42,174 bases of DNA from Eubacteriales bacterium. GTDB taxonomy: Bacteria > Bacillota > Clostridia > Tissierellales > GPF-1. The notes under the pieces are model-generated. The model made no database searches and had not been told where the DNA came from. It saw only the letters and a list, made by a program, of their open reading frames with translations. Shown here one piece after another: positions 25,324 to 41,228 of this stretch (position 1 is its first letter; every line of letters begins with the position of its first letter). A program made the translations under genes and the position numbers. The DNA lies in the NCBI GenBank assembly GCA_030625815.1, contig DAOUQF010000032.1:1-42174 (forward strand). Direction: 5' to 3'.

Positions 25324-26883
<1,560 letters not shown>

Positions 26884-26885
26884 TT

Positions 26886-26899
26886 AGCAAACGTTTTCT
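26886..26899. promoter_or_regulatory. cre-like site in the glpK leader
   Basis: AGCAAACGTTTTCT is near-palindromic and fits the catabolite-responsive element consensus apart from its ends. It lies downstream of the leader terminator and could act as a CcpA roadblock. Weak evidence alone, stronger together with the site over the promoter. Confidence 0.35.
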
Positions 26900-31964: not shown

Positions 31965-33374
31965 TTACCGTGGGAATTTCAGGGTAAATAAAACGCCCTC
32001 TTCCCGATTCTCTACCCCGCGTTCTCCGTGATGCGCTTTGACGATTTGATCGACGATCGCCAATCCCAAACCCATGCCGCGCGACTCTTCCTTTCGGCCT
32101 CGATAAAAGCCTTTCCACAATTCAGCAATTTCCTCGGGGTCAATCGCTTCTCCTCGATTCCAAACCTGAACCGTTAAATGAGAAGGATCCGAAGAAATCG
32201 TAAATCGAATCAATCCATTCTCGCCGGTATGGCGTTTGGCATTATTCAATAAATTAAATACCGCCTGAGACAATCGCTGGCGATCCGCCCAAAGGATCAA
32301 GGTGGTATCTTCCATTTCACTATGGATTTCAATTTCCTCAGACCCCGCCATTCGCCGGAATCGATCCGCAATGCCATCCATCCAAGGCTTCACTTCAATC
32401 TTTTCCTTCTTCATTTGAAAAGCCCCGGACTCCAACTGAGACAGATCCGTCAAGTCCCTGGCCATTCGGCTCAAAAACTGAATCTCTTCCTCAATCACCT
32501 GATAATACTCGCGGCGTTCCGCCTCATCTGTCGGCAATCCATCCTCCAGCCCTTCCACATACCCCTGAATAACAGCCAACGGCGTCTGCAGCTCATGGGA
32601 AACCTTGGCGACAAAGCCCTTTCTCATCGCCTCCAAATTCTTTTCCTTCGCCAGCTCGCTTTGCAGCCGTTCGATCGTATCCGCCAATTGCTGTGACAAT
32701 TCATTGATGCTTCCGCCCAATTCTCCAATTTCATCGGAACGCTCCTCAGAAAACCGCTCCCGGAAATCCAATTTTGCCATGGCTTTTGCTTGGCTGTTCA
32801 ACCGGGCAATGGGACGGCTCAAATTCCGCGCGGCAAACCAGGCTGCACCGATTCCCAAAACCAATCCCATTAAAAAGATTCGTTTTAAAAAAATCAAAAA
32901 TGCAGAAACTGCCGCTTCCACCTCACCCATAGGGCGCTGCAAAAGAATCGTCGATCCCTCATCGGTCTGATGGCGATTCACCAGCCACTCTCCCGGTTGA
33001 TTGTTCAGGGTGGTAATCCCGTTGTATTCGTTGCCAATTCCATCCTGATCCCATTTTCCGTGCCCCTGGCCGCGCATGCCCTGCATGCCTTGACCTGAGG
33101 TTCCCTTCCAATAGATCAACTCTCCGTTCTCATTAAAGATTTGCACCAAGGCGTCGCTTTGAAGCGCCAGCGCCTCCCACTCGGCCAAGGGCGCCTCTTG
33201 CGATGCAAGCTCAACTCGCTCAAACTCCACCATCAACTCGGCCAACCGCTGCAATTCCACTTCCTGATAATAGACCGGAAAGGCTTGAGACCCATAGAGA
33301 TAGCCGATGGAGAAGACCAATAAAAAAAGTCCTACGATCATCAGTAGCATACGCTCTCGAATTCTCAGTCTCAT
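31965..33374 (-). CDS. Two-component sensor histidine kinase
   Basis: A 469-residue membrane kinase. TM1 is about 8-28, an extracellular domain spans 29-155, TM2 is about 158-182, HAMP is about 183-235, the HisKA box is KVSHELQTPLA (His260), and the HATPase domain has NLLNNAKRHTG and GMGLGLAIV near the C-terminus. The extracellular part holds an unusual Gly/Gln/Met/His-rich stretch (about 93-112, GQGMQGMRGQGHG), which could bind metal such as copper or silver, or recognise the similarly Gly/Gln-rich secreted protein encoded upstream. Both ideas are inference. It overlaps the response-regulator gene by 4 bp. Confidence 0.95.
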   Translation of the reverse strand: MRLRIRERMLLMIVGLFLLVFSIGYLYGSQAFPVYYQEVELQRLAELMVEFERVELASQEAPLAEWEALALQSDALVQIFNENGELIYWKGTSGQGMQGMRGQGHGKWDQDGIGNEYNGITTLNNQPGEWLVNRHQTDEGSTILLQRPMGEVEAAVSAFLIFLKRIFLMGLVLGIGAAWFAARNLSRPIARLNSQAKAMAKLDFRERFSEERSDEIGELGGSINELSQQLADTIERLQSELAKEKNLEAMRKGFVAKVSHELQTPLAVIQGYVEGLEDGLPTDEAERREYYQVIEEEIQFLSRMARDLTDLSQLESGAFQMKKEKIEVKPWMDGIADRFRRMAGSEEIEIHSEMEDTTLILWADRQRLSQAVFNLLNNAKRHTGENGLIRFTISSDPSHLTVQVWNRGEAIDPEEIAELWKGFYRGRKEESRGMGLGLAIVDQIVKAHHGERGVENREEGVLFTLKFPR

Positions 33375-34048
33375 ACATCCTCCTCAAAACGATATCCCGC
33401 ACCCCGCACCGTTACAATTTGCTTTCCGGCAACGCCCAGTTTTTTTCTCAATCGCTTGATATGGGTGTCTACCGTGCGATCGTCCCCAAAATAATCGTAT
33501 CCCCATACCCGGTCAAGAATCATTTCCCTTGTCAAAACCCGATGGGCATTGTTCACAAAATAAAAAAGCAACTCATATTCCTTCGGCGACAAGACAATTT
33601 CGCTTCCGTCCACCTGAACCTGATGGGATTGAGGGGACAAAACAATTTCCCCCATTTTCACAAAAGATTCCGCCGCGCGTTTCTCGCGCCGCTTCATGAC
33701 GACACGAACCCTCGCCATCAATTCCCTCGGGCTGAAGGGCTTCGTCATATAATCCTCTGCGCCCAATTCAAATCCAAACAACTTGTCTTCTTCATCGCCG
33801 CGCGCCGTCAACATGATCACAGGAAGATCAGACTCGCTGCGCAACTGACGCAAAACCGACCAGCCGTCCACTTCCGGCATCATCACATCCAGAATCACAA
33901 GATCAACCGCATTTTCATCCAGAAGATCGATTGCTTCCTGGCCATTTCTCGCTTCTAGCACCTCATAGCCGTCACGCTGCAAATAGGTCCGTACAATCTT
34001 TCGAAGCCGTTCTTCATCCTCCGCAACAAGCACACGCAATCCATTCAT
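33371..34048 (-). CDS. OmpR-family response regulator
   Basis: A 225-residue regulator. The receiver domain (1-115) has acidic pocket Asp11/Glu12, phospho-acceptor Asp54 in VILDVMMPE, Thr81 and Lys103 in TKPFSP. The winged-helix domain (about 130-225) has YELLFYFVNNAHRVLTRE and the recognition helix DDRTVDTHIKRLRKKL. It partners the overlapping histidine kinase. A TATAAT lies at the downstream edge of the preceding terminator, so it can be transcribed independently of the secreted-protein gene, with AAGGAGGG before the ATG. The neighbouring secreted protein is the natural candidate target. Confidence 0.96.
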   Translation of the reverse strand: MNGLRVLVAEDEERLRKIVRTYLQRDGYEVLEARNGQEAIDLLDENAVDLVILDVMMPEVDGWSVLRQLRSESDLPVIMLTARGDEEDKLFGFELGAEDYMTKPFSPRELMARVRVVMKRREKRAAESFVKMGEIVLSPQSHQVQVDGSEIVLSPKEYELLFYFVNNAHRVLTREMILDRVWGYDYFGDDRTVDTHIKRLRKKLGVAGKQIVTVRGAGYRFEEDV

Positions 34049-36520: not shown

Positions 36521-36572
36521 TTGTTATTTTTTTAACATGTACTTAAAAAGACTATTGATATTTTTTTATCAA
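36521..36572. promoter_or_regulatory. Two tandem Rex-like operators upstream of hydrogenase operon
   Basis: Site 1 (36521-36538) is TTGTTA-N6-TAACAT and site 2 (36555-36572) is TTGATA-N6-TATCAA; both are 18-bp palindromes with the geometry of the Rex consensus TTGTTAANNNNTTAACAA. Outside the four consensus N positions, site 1 differs at positions 7 and 18, and site 2 at 4, 7 and 15. Their starts are 34 bp apart and site 2 contains the -35 hexamer. Rex represses fermentative and hydrogenase genes in clostridia when NAD+ is high relative to NADH. Confidence 0.65.
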
Positions 36573-36583
36573 TGAGATAGGAT
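36555..36583 (+). promoter_or_regulatory. Promoter of hydrogenase operon
   Basis: TTGATA (36555-36560) and TAGGAT (36578-36583) are exactly 17 bp apart. The -35 is the left arm of the second Rex-like palindrome, so bound repressor would exclude RNA polymerase. Confidence 0.65.
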
Positions 36584-36616: not shown

Positions 36617-36859
36617 ATGGTTATTCAAGTTTGTATCGGCAGTGCGTGCCATTTAAAAGGATCTTATGAGGTTATTCAGAAGCTAAAGGGAAAGATTGCG
36701 GAGGGTGCCCTGGAAGATCAGGTCTTGCTGAAGTCGTCCTTCTGTCTGGGTCAATGCGCCCAAGCCGTATCGGTAAAAATTGACGATGAGCCCGTCTATT
36801 CAGTGTCTCCTGATACTGTCGATGAGTTTTTTGCTGTCTCCATTAAAGGAAGGCTCTAG
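36617..36859 (+). CDS. Thioredoxin-like [2Fe-2S] ferredoxin domain protein
   Basis: An 80-residue protein with the NuoE-like thioredoxin-fold [2Fe-2S] motif: QVCIGSACHLKG (Cys6, Cys11) and SSFCLGQCAQAV (Cys43, Cys47). It is a small electron carrier equivalent to the C-terminal domain of HydC/NuoE-type subunits. It is the first gene of the hydrogenase operon and ends immediately before the HydS start codon, with no gap, so expression is coupled. The likely role is electron transfer to or from the Fe-S clusters of its neighbours. GGAGG precedes the ATG. Confidence 0.92.
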   Translation: MVIQVCIGSACHLKGSYEVIQKLKGKIAEGALEDQVLLKSSFCLGQCAQAVSVKIDDEPVYSVSPDTVDEFFAVSIKGRL

Positions 36860-38587
36860 ATGTCTTTCATCGATTTTGACAAAGAAAAATGCGATGAGTG
36901 CTATAAATGCCTGCGCACCTGCCCAACCAAAGCCATTGCCTTTCTGGGCGATCGCCGAGAGATCATCAATGAACTTTGCATCAAATGCGGCAAATGTCAG
37001 GTAGTCTGTCCCCAAGGCGCCCTCACGATTGCTCAGGATCTTGACAAGGTCAAACTGTCGATTCGATCGAATCGACAAGTGATTGTTTCCATTGCGCCCT
37101 CCTTTGCATCCGCCTTCTCCATGGATGATCCCAGCCAGATTGTAACCGCACTCAAATATCTGGGCTTTACCCATGTCGAGGAGACAGCGATTGGCGCCGA
37201 AGTCGTTTCTCAGACCTACGAAACATTTATTGAAGATGGCGAGAAGAAAAATCTGATAACAACCAGCTGTCCTTCCGCCAATTACTTGGTGGAGCAATAC
37301 TATCCGGAATCCATTCCGTATCTGCTGCCCGTGGTTTCACCCATGATTGCTCATGGCAAACTAATGAAGGATCGCTTCGAAGACGCCTATGTGGTCTTCA
37401 TTGGTCCTTGCATGGCAAAAAAAGTGGAGGCTGAAGGCTTTCAGCATCGCGGAGTCATCGATGCCGTGATCACCTTCGAGGAACTGAGGGATTGGTTTGC
37501 CTCGGAGAAACTAACCTTGTCCCAGCTGACGCCAACGCCTTTTGATCATATCTCAACCAAGCGCGGGTGCGCCTACCCCTTAGGCGGAAGCCTATTCAAA
37601 AGCGATTTCCGAACCCGAATCAACCATCAATACAAATATGTTCGCGTCGATGGAATCGAAGAATGCAAAGATATTCTCGATGCCATGAGAAAGGGCGCCT
37701 TGGACCACTATTGCATCGAGATCAACATCTGCAGCGGCTCCTGCATCAATGGACCCGGAATGCCCGACGACGGCACCTGCCATTTTGAGCGGGAAATGCG
37801 CCTGCATCAATACGTAGATACAAAGAAAACCCTCAAGGAAGCCAGAAAGAAAAATCACTTCGAATTTGAACATCTCGATCTTTCAAAAACCTTTGAGGCA
37901 AAAAATCTCTGCTACGATATTGCCACGGAAGCCGATATCCAAGGCGCTTTGGTTCGCATGGGCAAATACACCAAACAGGATCAATTGAATTGCGGCGCTT
38001 GCGGATACGACACCTGCCGCGAAAAGGCACGCGCTGTTGTGATGGGTATTTCCGACGGACAGATATGCATGCCGTATCTCCGCCAAAAAGCAGAGAGCAT
38101 GCAATCGGTCATCTTTGATTCGACCCCAAACAGCATCGTTATCCTGGATCGCGACTTGATGATTCGAGATGTCAATCCGGCCTTTGATCGCGCCTTTAAT
38201 CCCGAAGGCAGCCCGGTGAAGCACTTCCCCATCGCTGCTTTTTTAGAAGACGACCTCTTCCTGCAGGTGCAGGAAACCAAAAAAAGCATTCTCGGGCAAA
38301 GAATTCATTTCCCGTCGATCCATAAAACCTTTATCGTCAATATCGTCTTGCTGGAAAAAGAAAATTTGATTCTGGGCATTCTGGCCGACATCACGCAAGC
38401 AGAGAAGAATCAAATCGAATTGATGCGGGTCAAACGCGAAACGGTCATGACCTGTCAAAACGTTATCGAAAAGCAAATGCGCGTCGCCCAAGAAATTGCG
38501 AGCCTGCTTGGCGAGACCACAGCGGATACAAAGATCAATCTCAACCGCCTCAAAGACATCGTTTTATCCGACGAGGGGGATTTCTAA
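36860..38587 (+). CDS. hydS: HydS-like sensory [FeFe]-hydrogenase with Fe-S and PAS domains
   Basis: A 575-residue protein: two [4Fe-4S] motifs (Cys11/14/17/21 and 40/43/46/50), an H-cluster domain (about 72-330), an additional Fe-S domain (about 350-405; CGACGYDTC, Cys378/381/386 and 403), a PAS domain (about 412-515) and a coiled C-terminus. H-cluster ligands are kept: Cys137 in TTSCPSAN, Cys184 in IGPCMAKK, Cys291 and Cys295 in NICSGSC. The residue before Cys137, the proton-transfer Cys of catalytic enzymes (TSCCP), is Ser136, and the Met of the usual MAC motif is replaced by Asn289. This fits a sensor with low turnover. The next gene, a PP2C phosphatase, overlaps by one base. Confidence 0.9.
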   Translation: MSFIDFDKEKCDECYKCLRTCPTKAIAFLGDRREIINELCIKCGKCQVVCPQGALTIAQDLDKVKLSIRSNRQVIVSIAPSFASAFSMDDPSQIVTALKYLGFTHVEETAIGAEVVSQTYETFIEDGEKKNLITTSCPSANYLVEQYYPESIPYLLPVVSPMIAHGKLMKDRFEDAYVVFIGPCMAKKVEAEGFQHRGVIDAVITFEELRDWFASEKLTLSQLTPTPFDHISTKRGCAYPLGGSLFKSDFRTRINHQYKYVRVDGIEECKDILDAMRKGALDHYCIEINICSGSCINGPGMPDDGTCHFEREMRLHQYVDTKKTLKEARKKNHFEFEHLDLSKTFEAKNLCYDIATEADIQGALVRMGKYTKQDQLNCGACGYDTCREKARAVVMGISDGQICMPYLRQKAESMQSVIFDSTPNSIVILDRDLMIRDVNPAFDRAFNPEGSPVKHFPIAAFLEDDLFLQVQETKKSILGQRIHFPSIHKTFIVNIVLLEKENLILGILADITQAEKNQIELMRVKRETVMTCQNVIEKQMRVAQEIASLLGETTADTKINLNRLKDIVLSDEGDF

Positions 38588-39741
38588 TGAGCTACTATAT
38601 CGATATTGCCACCCAAAGCCTGAATAAGGTCGGCGAGGAATTATGCGGTGACAAGGTCGAGATATTTCGCGATACCGCACGAACTGTCATCGTCCTTGCG
38701 GATGGATTGGGAAGCGGTGTAAAAGCAAATATCCTCGCAACCATGACCACCAAGATTGCCGGAACCATGCTGATCAAGGGGGAATCCATCGAAGAAACCC
38801 TCGACACCCTGATGAAAACCCTGCCAGTTTGCCAGGTGAGAAAGATCGCCTATTCCACCTTTGGCGTGATCTCCATTGGCCCGGAAGGCACCTGTGTCAT
38901 GCTGGAATACGACAATCCGCCAATTTTTGCCCTTCGAAAGGGCGAGATCCTGCCGATTCAAAAACGAGAGATCTCCTTTGACGGAAAGATCGTTCGCCGA
39001 TCCAGCTTCTCGCTGCAGGAAGGCGACAGCCTCACCCTGGTAAGCGACGGCGTTATCCATGCCGGCGTAGGCGAAACCCTGAACCATGGATGGGAATGGG
39101 AGCACGTCGCCAGCTTTCTATCGCGGCAATCCGTCAAAACGGCGGATCAATTGAATCAACGACTGATCGACGCCTGCGCAAAACTCTATAATCACCATCC
39201 CGGAGACGATACAACAGCTGTAACGGTTAAGCTTCGCGCACCGGAGACCCTCAGCTTGTTTACGGGTCCCCCGATCGATCCCGATGACGATGCCTATCTC
39301 GTCAAAAAGTTCATCAGGCAGAGCGGCAAAAAGATTGTTTGCGGCGGCACTGCCGCCAATATCATTGGCCGGGAACTCCATCGTGAAATCGAGACCTGTC
39401 TGGATTACTTGGATCCGGAGATTCCGCCCGTTGCAAAGATCAAAGGCATTGATCTGGTCACCGAAGGTGTCCTAACCCTGCAAAAGACCATTGATCGCCT
39501 GGAAGCCTTTCGATTGAAACTCCCGGGCTATGATCCGAAACGCGAAGACGGTGCAACCCGTCTGGCAAAATTGTTAATCAACGACTCTACCCATATTCAG
39601 TTCTTTATCGGCCGGGCCATCAATCCCGCCCATCAGAATCCGGATTTTCCCGCTGCCTTGAGCATCAAAATGCATGTGGTGGAATCCCTGATCGAGGAAT
39701 TGAAGAAAATTGGAAAAGAAGTCGAAGTCCATAGATTTTAA
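38587..39741 (+). CDS. SpoIIE/PP2C-type phosphatase of the hydrogenase operon
   Basis: A 384-residue serine phosphatase. Residues 1-215 form the PP2C/SpoIIE domain, with metal-binding Asp residues in GDKVEIF, VLADGLGSGVKA, TLVSDGVIHAG and HPGDDTTAVTV. The region 216-384 is a separate domain I cannot name (KKIVCGGTAANIIGREL, LVTEGVLTLQKT), with a Gly-rich loop. Phosphatases of this type accompany sensory hydrogenases in clostridia, and probably dephosphorylate an unknown protein in response to the HydS state; the substrate and link are inferred. The start ATG shares its A with the hydS stop (TAATG), with GAGGGGG upstream. Confidence 0.9.
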   Translation: MSYYIDIATQSLNKVGEELCGDKVEIFRDTARTVIVLADGLGSGVKANILATMTTKIAGTMLIKGESIEETLDTLMKTLPVCQVRKIAYSTFGVISIGPEGTCVMLEYDNPPIFALRKGEILPIQKREISFDGKIVRRSSFSLQEGDSLTLVSDGVIHAGVGETLNHGWEWEHVASFLSRQSVKTADQLNQRLIDACAKLYNHHPGDDTTAVTVKLRAPETLSLFTGPPIDPDDDAYLVKKFIRQSGKKIVCGGTAANIIGRELHREIETCLDYLDPEIPPVAKIKGIDLVTEGVLTLQKTIDRLEAFRLKLPGYDPKREDGATRLAKLLINDSTHIQFFIGRAINPAHQNPDFPAALSIKMHVVESLIEELKKIGKEVEVHRF

Positions 39742-39753
39742 GAGGTGACCTTT

Positions 39754-41199
39754 ATGAGAGTATTCGAAAATCAAGTGCAATTTGTCAAGTACGAGGTTCT
39801 GCGCGAAGTCGCGCGCTATTCCTTCGAAGACAACCTGGAAAAAGGGAAAAAAGTCATTCCCCTGATTCTGAACCCCGGACCCGAGCCGCGATTTCGCTGC
39901 TGTGTCTATCACGAGCGCGAGGTGACAAAGGAACGCATCCGCATGGCGGAAGGTGGCGATTCCGCCAACCCGTTGATTGTGGAAGTCCTCGATTCCGCTT
40001 GCGATCAATGCCCGGTACAACGATATACCATCAATGAGAATTGCCGAGGCTGCCTGGCTCACCGATGCGAACAAGCCTGTCCCGTTAACGCCATCACCTA
40101 CATAGGCGGAAAAGCCATTATGGATCACAGCAAGTGCATCGAATGCGGACGCTGTGCACAAGCCTGCCCCTATAATGCCATCTCCGATGTGATGCGTCCC
40201 TGCAGAAGAGCCTGCCCAACGGGCGCCATCGAAATCAACAAAGAGAAAAAGGCAGTCATCAATCCCGACAAATGCATTGAATGCGGCGCCTGTGTATATC
40301 AATGTCCCTTTGGAGCGATTCAGGATAAATCCGAAATCACCAAGGTCATCGAGAGCCTTAAGGGAGATCGGTCCGTCTATGCCATGGTCGCCCCCGCCTT
40401 CTCCACCCAGTACAATTCGGCGGAACTCGGACAAATCATCGCCGGAATCAAGGCCCTCGGATTCCAAGACGTCATCGAAGTCGCCTTGGGCGCGGACCTC
40501 GTTTCCATCGAAGAAACCAAGGAATTGGCGACTCATTTAGAGTCCCATTCCGTGATGACAAGTTCCTGCTGTCCCGCCTTTGTCCAATATGTGGATCACG
40601 AGTATCCCGAATTGAAAAAATTGGTTTCCACAACAGTCTCCCCCATGATCGCAACCTCGCGATTGATCAAAAAGATCGATCCCGACGCGATTACGGTATT
40701 TATCGGCCCTTGCGTCGCAAAGAAATCCGAGAAAAAGCAGGCAGATCTCCTAGGAGACACGGAGTATGTGCTAACCTTTGAAGAGCTTTCCGCCCTCATC
40801 GACGCGAAGGGCATCGCTTTGGAAGAACTGGAGCCAATCCCTTTGAACAATGCCTCGTATTTTGGCCGAATCTTCGCCTCGACAGGCGGATTGACCGAAT
40901 CCGTCAAACATGCGGCGAAGCAATTGAATTTGGGACTTGAGATCAAGAGCTTGGCTTGCGACGGCATCAAGGAATGCGACAAAGCCTTGAAGTTGACGAA
41001 GTTCAATCGCCAGACAGCGAATTTCATTGAAGGAATGGCCTGTATCGGCGGTTGCATCAAAGGACCTGTTACCATGCATCATGGTAACAAGGACAAAAGT
41101 GCAGTCGCGACCTACGGAAACCTCGCCATGGAAGAGGATCAGCAAGATGCCCTGCGTGTTTTTGACTTGCAGGAGATCTCTCTCCATCGACACAAATAG
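39754..41199 (+). CDS. Group-B-type [FeFe] hydrogenase
   Basis: A 481-residue protein with all three H-cluster signatures intact: TSSCCPAF (Cys272 proton-transfer, Cys273), SPMIA with Met298, FIGPCVAKK (Cys320) and EGMACIGGC (Met428, Cys430, Cys434). The N-terminal 200 residues are Cys-rich: Cys49/50, DSACDQCPVQ, CRGCLAHRCEQACP, CIECGRCAQACP, RPCRRACP and CIECGACVYQCP, giving at least three [4Fe-4S] clusters. This architecture is that of clostridial group B enzymes, whose physiological direction is uncertain. Start ATG 39754-39756 follows AGAGGTGA; the three-codon upstream extension is rejected. A terminator follows. It probably exchanges electrons with ferredoxin in the cytoplasm. Confidence 0.92.
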   Translation: MRVFENQVQFVKYEVLREVARYSFEDNLEKGKKVIPLILNPGPEPRFRCCVYHEREVTKERIRMAEGGDSANPLIVEVLDSACDQCPVQRYTINENCRGCLAHRCEQACPVNAITYIGGKAIMDHSKCIECGRCAQACPYNAISDVMRPCRRACPTGAIEINKEKKAVINPDKCIECGACVYQCPFGAIQDKSEITKVIESLKGDRSVYAMVAPAFSTQYNSAELGQIIAGIKALGFQDVIEVALGADLVSIEETKELATHLESHSVMTSSCCPAFVQYVDHEYPELKKLVSTTVSPMIATSRLIKKIDPDAITVFIGPCVAKKSEKKQADLLGDTEYVLTFEELSALIDAKGIALEELEPIPLNNASYFGRIFASTGGLTESVKHAAKQLNLGLEIKSLACDGIKECDKALKLTKFNRQTANFIEGMACIGGCIKGPVTMHHGNKDKSAVATYGNLAMEEDQQDALRVFDLQEISLHRHK

Positions 41200-41202
41200 A
41201 AG

Positions 41203-41228
41203 AAAATGCGCCGCGGGGCGCATTTTTT
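41203..41228 (+). terminator. Intrinsic terminator of hydrogenase operon
   Basis: Stem AAAATGCGCC/GGCGCATTTT (41203-41212 with 41217-41226) and 4-nt loop runs into T residues to 41228, just after the stop codon. Confidence 0.92.

Follow-up and report, generated by a model that had tools for sequence, protein, structure and literature searches.

A stretch of 42,174 nucleotides from a clostridial genome (assembly GCA_030625815.1, contig DAOUQF010000032.1; the whole stretch is hereafter called the window) carries on its plus strand, at 36617-41199, four open reading frames (ORFs) that lie 0 bp apart (hfsA and hfsB), overlap by 1 base (hfsB and hfsC) or are separated by 3 or 12 bp (hfsC and hfsD). 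Judged from its sequence, this module is an hfsABCD operon, a new copy of the cluster known from Thermoanaerobacterium. The circuit ascribed to hfsABCD, running from H2 or redox state through a PAS-bearing hydrogenase and a phosphatase to adhE and hydrogenase genes, is already in print; new from our comparison are a candidate interface between HydS and HfsC, probable control by Rex and, in relatives, a candidate RNA-linked regulator. Domains were called with Pfam and NCBIfam models against the family cut-offs. A preliminary description of the same DNA had reported four tightly packed genes, and its coordinates, gene count and family assignments hold under the ORF and domain calls. The module comprises the following features, with lengths in amino acids (aa):

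36617..36859, plus strand: hfsA-like gene, thioredoxin-like [2Fe-2S] ferredoxin family, 80 aa; PF01257 at 40.6 bits (cut-off 24.8)
36860..38587, plus strand: hydS/hfsB, 575 aa, with 2x[4Fe-4S] domain, H-cluster domain, C-terminal Fe-S motif, PAS-like domain and output helix
38459..38554, plus strand: HydS output helix, residues 534-565, the most conserved part of HydS
38587..39741, plus strand: hfsC, SpoIIE-type PP2C phosphatase, 384 aa, metal-site motifs intact, best structure match 5mqh
39238..39738, plus strand: HfsC C-terminal domain, residues 218-384, no Pfam or NCBIfam name, Rossmann-like predicted fold
39745..41199, plus strand: hfsD, group B [FeFe] hydrogenase, 484 aa; TIGR04105 at 568.9 bits (cut-off 450); likely start ATG 39754

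For hfsD, either GTG 39745 (3 bp from hfsC) or ATG 39754 (12 bp) may serve as start codon, the ATG having the better ribosome-binding site by eye.

Published systems were compared by layout and description; papers are cited here by PubMed Central number. The hfsABCD clusters of T. saccharolyticum and T. thermosaccharolyticum (PMC5707799, PMC11837493) have the same four-gene content, namely a small first gene, a PAS-bearing [FeFe] hydrogenase, a serine phosphatase and a ferredoxin-linked hydrogenase; in a review (PMC8924675), TsHfsB is classed as a putative sensory enzyme and TsHfsD as a member of group B. Thermoanaerobacterium HfsA gives no good alignment to a known protein according to PMC11837493, whereas the first gene of the window matches PF01257. 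The cluster of R. albus 7 (PMC6776011) likewise combines a sensory group C hydrogenase with PAS domain, a phosphatase and a catalytic hydrogenase, but it includes AdhE, while the full-length adhE of the window's genome lies elsewhere (contig C23), and its catalytic enzyme is typed as group A1, that of the window as group B.

Products of the hfs genes

HydS matched Fe_hyd_lg_C at 191 bits and, with its C-terminal four-cysteine Fe-S motif, PF04060 at 33.8 bits (cut-off 23). At the positions of CpI residues C299, M353 and M497 (taken from PMC10055695 and PMC8163306) it has S136, G182 and N289, as matched by motif. Among 69 HydS sequences, the window's included, position 136 is Cys in 38, Ala in 12 and Ser in 11; with Cys still present in 38, loss of the relay is not general in the clade. 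TamHydS and TmHydS likewise show substitutions around the H-cluster and an additional C-terminal Fe-S motif; a PAS-like domain, under the Pfam cut-off in the window's HydS, would be shared with TmHydS, and TamHydS is without PAS. In an alignment to CpI, HfsD retains the relay Cys as well as the MAC-motif Met, with Gly at the position of M353.

The same 69 sequences were used to locate conservation along HydS. The output helix, assigned as a helix from sequence and centred around QMRVAQEIASLLGETTADTK, has a mean majority fraction of 0.87, with 20 of its 32 columns at or above 95%, compared with 0.53 in the H-cluster domain and 0.48 in the PAS region; set against other 30-residue stretches of HydS, it reaches a mean of 0.89 versus 0.74 for the best elsewhere. 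Domain scans reported no kinase domain for HydS, which means that the output has to be a different protein.

HfsC matched PF07228 at 68.3 bits over residues 31-216, leaving the final ~165 aa under no model. D22, D39, D154, D207 and D208 are invariant in 67 sequences (window included) and line up with SpoIIE; the motifs GD, DGxG, SDG and GDD we take to be the metal-binding Asp motifs of SpoIIE/PP2C. An AlphaFold2 model had a predicted local distance difference test score (pLDDT) of 91.0, and Foldseek returned the SpoIIE phosphatase domain 5mqh as its closest structure at an expectation value (E) of 6e-15. HfsC thus has the fold and metal-site motifs of SpoIIE/RsbU-type PP2C phosphatases, but no N-terminal regulatory region, and carries the C-terminal domain instead. 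This domain, modelled at a pLDDT of 91.6, has invariant GG, LxxEGxxT and NxAH motifs. Foldseek gave no match to it in the PDB at E 0.001, and the best VIA-align Z scores were 9.7 (6s6y_F, formyltransferase/hydrolase complex) and 9.5 (7awt_G, NADH quinone oxidoreductase); as these are only middling, we claim a Rossmann-like arrangement and assign no function, and binding of a ligand is a guess.

Gene order, pairing and upstream sites

Related loci (L numbers) were collected in a contig scan with HfsC, keeping the best 80 of at least 582 relatives, a choice that favours near relatives and contains no record titled Thermoanaerobacterium; hfsC was called in 77, and loci ended by contig ends were scored as misses. 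A hydS gene lies immediately 5' of hfsC in 75/77 loci, an arrangement that is therefore not chance, and an hfsA homologue two genes 5' in 59/77. A group B hydrogenase (>350 bits) is found within two genes of hfsC in 28/77, a split copy in L036 and a cut copy in L082 being uncounted, and HydB of the electron-bifurcating-type HydABC in 17 loci, in 16 of them within five genes. AdhE is encoded immediately upstream of hfsA in 4/77 loci (a sequence search bore out all four, Pfam three of them); an 859-aa gene in L073, AdhE-like by length, proved to encode a P-type ATPase. The constant core is thus hfsB-hfsC, usually plus hfsA, and its partners vary between the group B enzyme, HydABC and AdhE. The preliminary description had named conservation of the gene order as a check on its proposal: the order was kept for B and C and mostly for A, while D is replaceable and within reach in 28/77 only, so the unit is a two- or three-gene core plus a variable partner. 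Two loci, L023 and L024, have two hydS copies in the order hydS-hfsA-hydS-hfsC.

Pairing of the HydS tail with the HfsC C-terminal domain was surveyed in 291 genomes (G numbers) sampled evenly from the class, at E<=0.01 for the tail and E<=0.001 for the domain. The tail was found in 88 genomes, nearly always in HydS-sized ORFs, the domain in 86, in ORFs of ~390 aa bar a few fragments, and both in 84. In 81 of these 84, tail and domain are adjacent on one strand with 640-743 bases between them; in the other three they lie at opposite ends of one contig (G100), ~16 kb apart (G152) or on two contigs (G299). Among the six genomes with a single occurrence, G138, G094 and G261 gave weak matches and in G115 the match is at a contig end; the remaining two are considered below. 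The near one-to-one, adjacent pairing names HfsC as partner of the sensor, and we infer from these sequence comparisons that the HydS helix acts as the output and HfsC as the receiver.

Three further features flank the module:

36521..36538, strand not assigned: Rex-like operator TTGTTA-N6-TAACAT, two mismatches to TTGTTAANNNNTTAACAA
36555..36583, plus strand: promoter-like site TTGATA-17-TAGGAT, scan match 9 of 12, weak
41203..41226, strand not assigned: inverted repeat 3' of hfsD, candidate bidirectional terminator, from a minus-strand scan only, with a plus-strand T-rich tail by eye

With the clostridial Rex consensus quoted from PMC8457756 and PMC9600882, a graded scan was run over 250-base regions upstream of hfsA, the hfsA start being re-set by motif (46 usable regions, window included). 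A Rex-like site with at most two mismatches was present in 19/46, the window among them, whereas 60 dinucleotide shuffles averaged 0.8 and never exceeded 3 of 46, and four permuted palindromes gave 0, 0, 2 and 1; exact Rex patterns were found in 0/60 upstream regions of 180 bases. The window's own genome encodes a Rex-type DNA-binding domain and has Rex-like sites with one and two mismatches inside 60 bases upstream of adhE; there is no Rex-like site upstream of hydC, and the second group A set and the cluster on contig C55 described below are preceded by a three-mismatch site only. Taken together, these sites point to probable gating of operon transcription by Rex (NADH/NAD+). A Rex-like site with one mismatch was also noted at 26873-26890, just upstream of a minus-strand FGGY carbohydrate kinase gene (25324-26847).

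The promoter scan gave two promoter-like sites against a mean of 5.4 in shuffles. A palindrome, ATTGATA-N6-TATCAAT, at ~36554-36573 recurs with one mismatch in the same-genus locus L011. A scan for exact copies in 59 further upstream regions, among them a shortened L011 region, gave none, and the palindrome is left unproven.

Proposed circuit and competing explanations

As the explanation of the whole, to which we give a probability of roughly 0.6, HfsA, HydS and HfsC would form a signalling core, with HfsD as metabolic partner, that steers between ethanol and H2/acetate. The H-cluster and Fe-S domains of HydS would sense H2 and/or the redox state of ferredoxin, with electrons likely fed in by HfsA. 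Docking of the HydS PAS-like domain and C-terminal helix onto HfsC would switch the PP2C phosphatase; a ligand or the substrate is probably bound by the Rossmann-like domain of HfsC. HfsC would then dephosphorylate some Ser/Thr-phosphorylated regulator, and this regulator would tilt metabolism towards H2/acetate or towards ethanol by way of adhE and hydrogenase expression or activity, with operon transcription itself probably under Rex. The gene content, the intact catalytic motifs, the conserved helix, the near-obligate pairing of HydS with HfsC and the Rex-like sites are seen in the sequences; we infer, rather than observe, H2 as the signal here, the docking of the helix, the phosphatase activity of HfsC and all steps downstream of it.

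Genetic data from T. saccharolyticum (PMC5707799) bear on this circuit. Strains lacking hfsA or hfsB made ~1.8-fold more ethanol and had two- and threefold more adhE transcript, strains lacking hfsC or hfsD showed no rise in either, and removal of all four hfs genes gave no substantial rise in ethanol, wild-type hfsC and hfsD being required for the effect. The helix-to-HfsC reading fits these results, as the loss of B takes effect only in the presence of C and D. In R. albus (PMC6776011), an eight-gene cluster with a ferredoxin-only hydrogenase, AdhE and the sensory group C hydrogenase was 111-fold down in co-culture, and its authors proposed that H2 is sensed via PAS and the phosphatase subunit. 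The preliminary description had suggested a path from the HydS H-cluster through the Fe-S and PAS domains to the phosphatase; it mentioned neither the knockout data nor the Rex-like operator and the output helix. The circuit as such matches the hypothesis of PMC5707799 and PMC6776011, and its step from HydS to the phosphatase is strengthened by the comparisons above; passage of redox signals through the C-terminal Fe-S cluster is the part that became doubtful.

That doubt comes from an analogous case, the related TamHydS, whose C-terminal cluster H2 does not reduce (PMC13104023). It is one of several points that weigh against the proposed circuit. The PAS_8 match of the window's HydS, at 18.8 bits, is under the Pfam cut-off of 21.8, although a PAS model passes in 7/8 homologues scanned alongside. 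At the sensitivity of the survey, two genomes are real exceptions to the pairing, G176 having the HfsC domain without a HydS tail and G120 a tail without the domain, and the Fisher's test value for the co-occurrence of tail and domain, 2e-65, comes from counts that ignore shared ancestry. The whole 42-kb window holds three Rex-like sites at <=2 mismatches, two besides the hfs one, so that a single site alone is weak evidence. Finally, expression of hfsD alone gave high ethanol in T. thermosaccharolyticum (PMC11837493), and part of the phenotype may therefore be plain electron flow.

As the preliminary description had it, no kinase is encoded within the module, which the Pfam and NCBIfam calls on its ORFs bear out. 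A histidine kinase/response regulator pair was noted on the minus strand at 31965-34048, ~2.6 kb from hfsA. Two Hanks-type kinases turned up in a search of the window's own genome: a PrkC-type enzyme of 645 aa with three PASTA stretches, and a second kinase that lies near transposase-like ORFs (by eye) and was set aside. Contig C55 of the same genome (L105, 2087-5774) encodes a group D-like hydrogenase of 433 aa, TamHydS-like by domain make-up and neighbours, together with a 143-aa RsbW-like ATPase, DRTGG, PHP-like and HATPase genes. The RsbW-like ATPase, a putative kinase, appears a better lead than the Hanks-type kinases.

This lead belongs to a rather unlikely alternative, in which HfsC would act by partner switching of the SpoIIE/RsbU type and its target would be an anti-anti-sigma-like or DRTGG-type protein phosphorylated by the ATPase of C55. 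The nearest solved structure to HfsC is indeed SpoIIE, and in L084 (3811-11641) the ATPase, DRTGG and group D-like genes form one same-strand run directly upstream of hfsABCD. A DRTGG gene (E<=1e-100) occurs in 25/28 relatives with HfsC versus 9/32 without (own genome included), but this co-occurrence may reflect hydrogen metabolism only. The ATPase is near hfsC in only 2/77 loci, in one of which (L079) it lies eight genes upstream on the opposite strand, and the copy on C55 passes HATPase_c but misses the HATPase_c_2 cut-off (26.5 of 27.4).

In a further alternative, which we judge improbable, the four products would form one electron-transfer enzyme, with HfsA and HfsB as accessory or inhibitory subunits of HfsD and the phenotypes arising from altered ferredoxin/H2 cycling instead of protein dephosphorylation. 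HfsB and HfsD are both [FeFe] proteins, hfsD alone was enough for high ethanol with hydAB and nfnAB present (PMC11837493), and the authors of PMC13277313 consider HfsABC possibly a functional hydrogenase itself. The scarcity of the group B gene within two genes of hfsC, the PP2C motifs kept by HfsC and its pairing with HydS, and the rise in hydrogenase activity and adhE transcripts on deletion of hfsB (PMC5707799) speak against it. That HfsC is a second, redox-gated phosphatase for substrates of the PASTA kinase PrkC is very improbable, for although a PrkC-type and one other Hanks-type kinase are present in the genome, a PP2C-like gene already adjoins prkC (by eye) and none of the 80 related loci gave a match to PrkC.

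The signalling core proposed here bears on how sensory [FeFe] hydrogenases relay their signal; a 2026 paper on a group D enzyme (PMC13104023) calls identification of the interaction partner critical, and the pairing of helix and HfsC names such a partner for the PAS-bearing group, along with residues to mutate. The hfs system steers ethanol yield in Thermoanaerobacterium, and the similar R. albus cluster reacts to H2 transfer.

TnpB-like genes and a structured RNA in related loci

In 7/77 related loci (L035, L046, L047, L064, L074, L086, L089) the gene directly after hfsC encodes a TnpB/Cas12f-like protein of 464-524 aa, assigned by a profile match to the PDB at E 1e-11 and by the NCBIfam TnpB model, which matched in 5/7. 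The window's own genome had no match to this family. A search of 391 genomes across the class gave 20 matches at E<=1e-10, of which 14 were strong (E<=1e-125), one per genome, three being already among the known loci; the six others were weak and partial and were set aside. All 14 strong matches lie in hfs loci, 11 adjoining hfsC and three following adhE. In the latter (L137, L138 and L139, from three genera of one family) the genes run (hfsA)-hydS-hfsC-adhE-tnpB on a single strand, and a gap of 206-420 bases separates adhE from hfsC. With positions assigned by eye from alignments of 18 distinct sequences, the RuvC-I Asp and the RuvC-III Asp are each kept in 0/18 and the RuvC-II Glu in 4/18, and the zinc CxxC pairs in 18/18.

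The stop codon of the tnpB-like gene is followed by an element of ~80-145 nucleotides that can form two hairpins and a pseudoknot and that is itself followed, by eye, by a terminator-like inverted repeat in most loci, L119 excepted. A covariance model built from 15 sequences found all seven loci among 87 sources (window included) at E<=1.5e-4, six of them being training sequences and L064 not, and nothing beyond the seven under E 0.01; L119, outside the training set, also matched. Nine of 15 tested pairs vary at both positions, and 99.6% of cells hold a pair, in an alignment that was fitted to two of the three helices. In shuffles, 0/500 reached the observed value on four of five measures and 374/500 on the fifth (number of pair types). 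The pseudoknot lies outside the model; a single pair of it covaries, in two sequences, and its four remaining pairs are invariant.

The protein shares with TldR, the nuclease-dead TnpB repressors (PMC13418256), homology to TnpB/Cas12f, lost RuvC residues, a retained zinc ribbon, a structured RNA directly downstream and a tie to non-transposon genes. The likeness lies in the build of the cassette, and the context differs, being flagellin or csrA for TldR and hfs, adhE or hydABC here. In a guide search over 14 loci (9-19 kb each) the best matches spanned 7-10 bases, no more than random guides gave in 13/14; in L086, 10 bases stood against a random maximum of 9, which we do not credit. The short space before the terminator in several species suggests that DNA targeting may have been lost. 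A link of TnpB or TldR with hydrogenase or hfs genes was not seen in searches of open-licence PMC papers.

Tentatively, and at somewhat below even odds, we propose that HydS-HfsC is a dedicated H2/redox-to-phosphatase switch with exchangeable outputs, one of which, in several clostridial lineages, would be a domesticated, nuclease-dead TnpB with a pseudoknotted RNA of its own, encoded in one gene run with hydABC or adhE. If the TnpB-like protein works with its RNA, it would be an unforeseen regulator of fermentation control, and relatives of the window would possess RNA-guided, or at least RNA-dependent, fermentation control coupled to a hydrogen sensor.

At gathering scores, Rfam reported only tRNAs in the seven loci with a TnpB-like gene. 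In L111-L114, a conserved leader lies ~100-250 bases 3' of the TnpB-associated RNA, before a membrane protein gene; it is present also in L047 and L086, where Rfam did not report it at gathering scores. The membrane protein of L111-L114 we take to be TerC-like, and its leader presumably resembles the yybP-ykoY manganese riboswitch.

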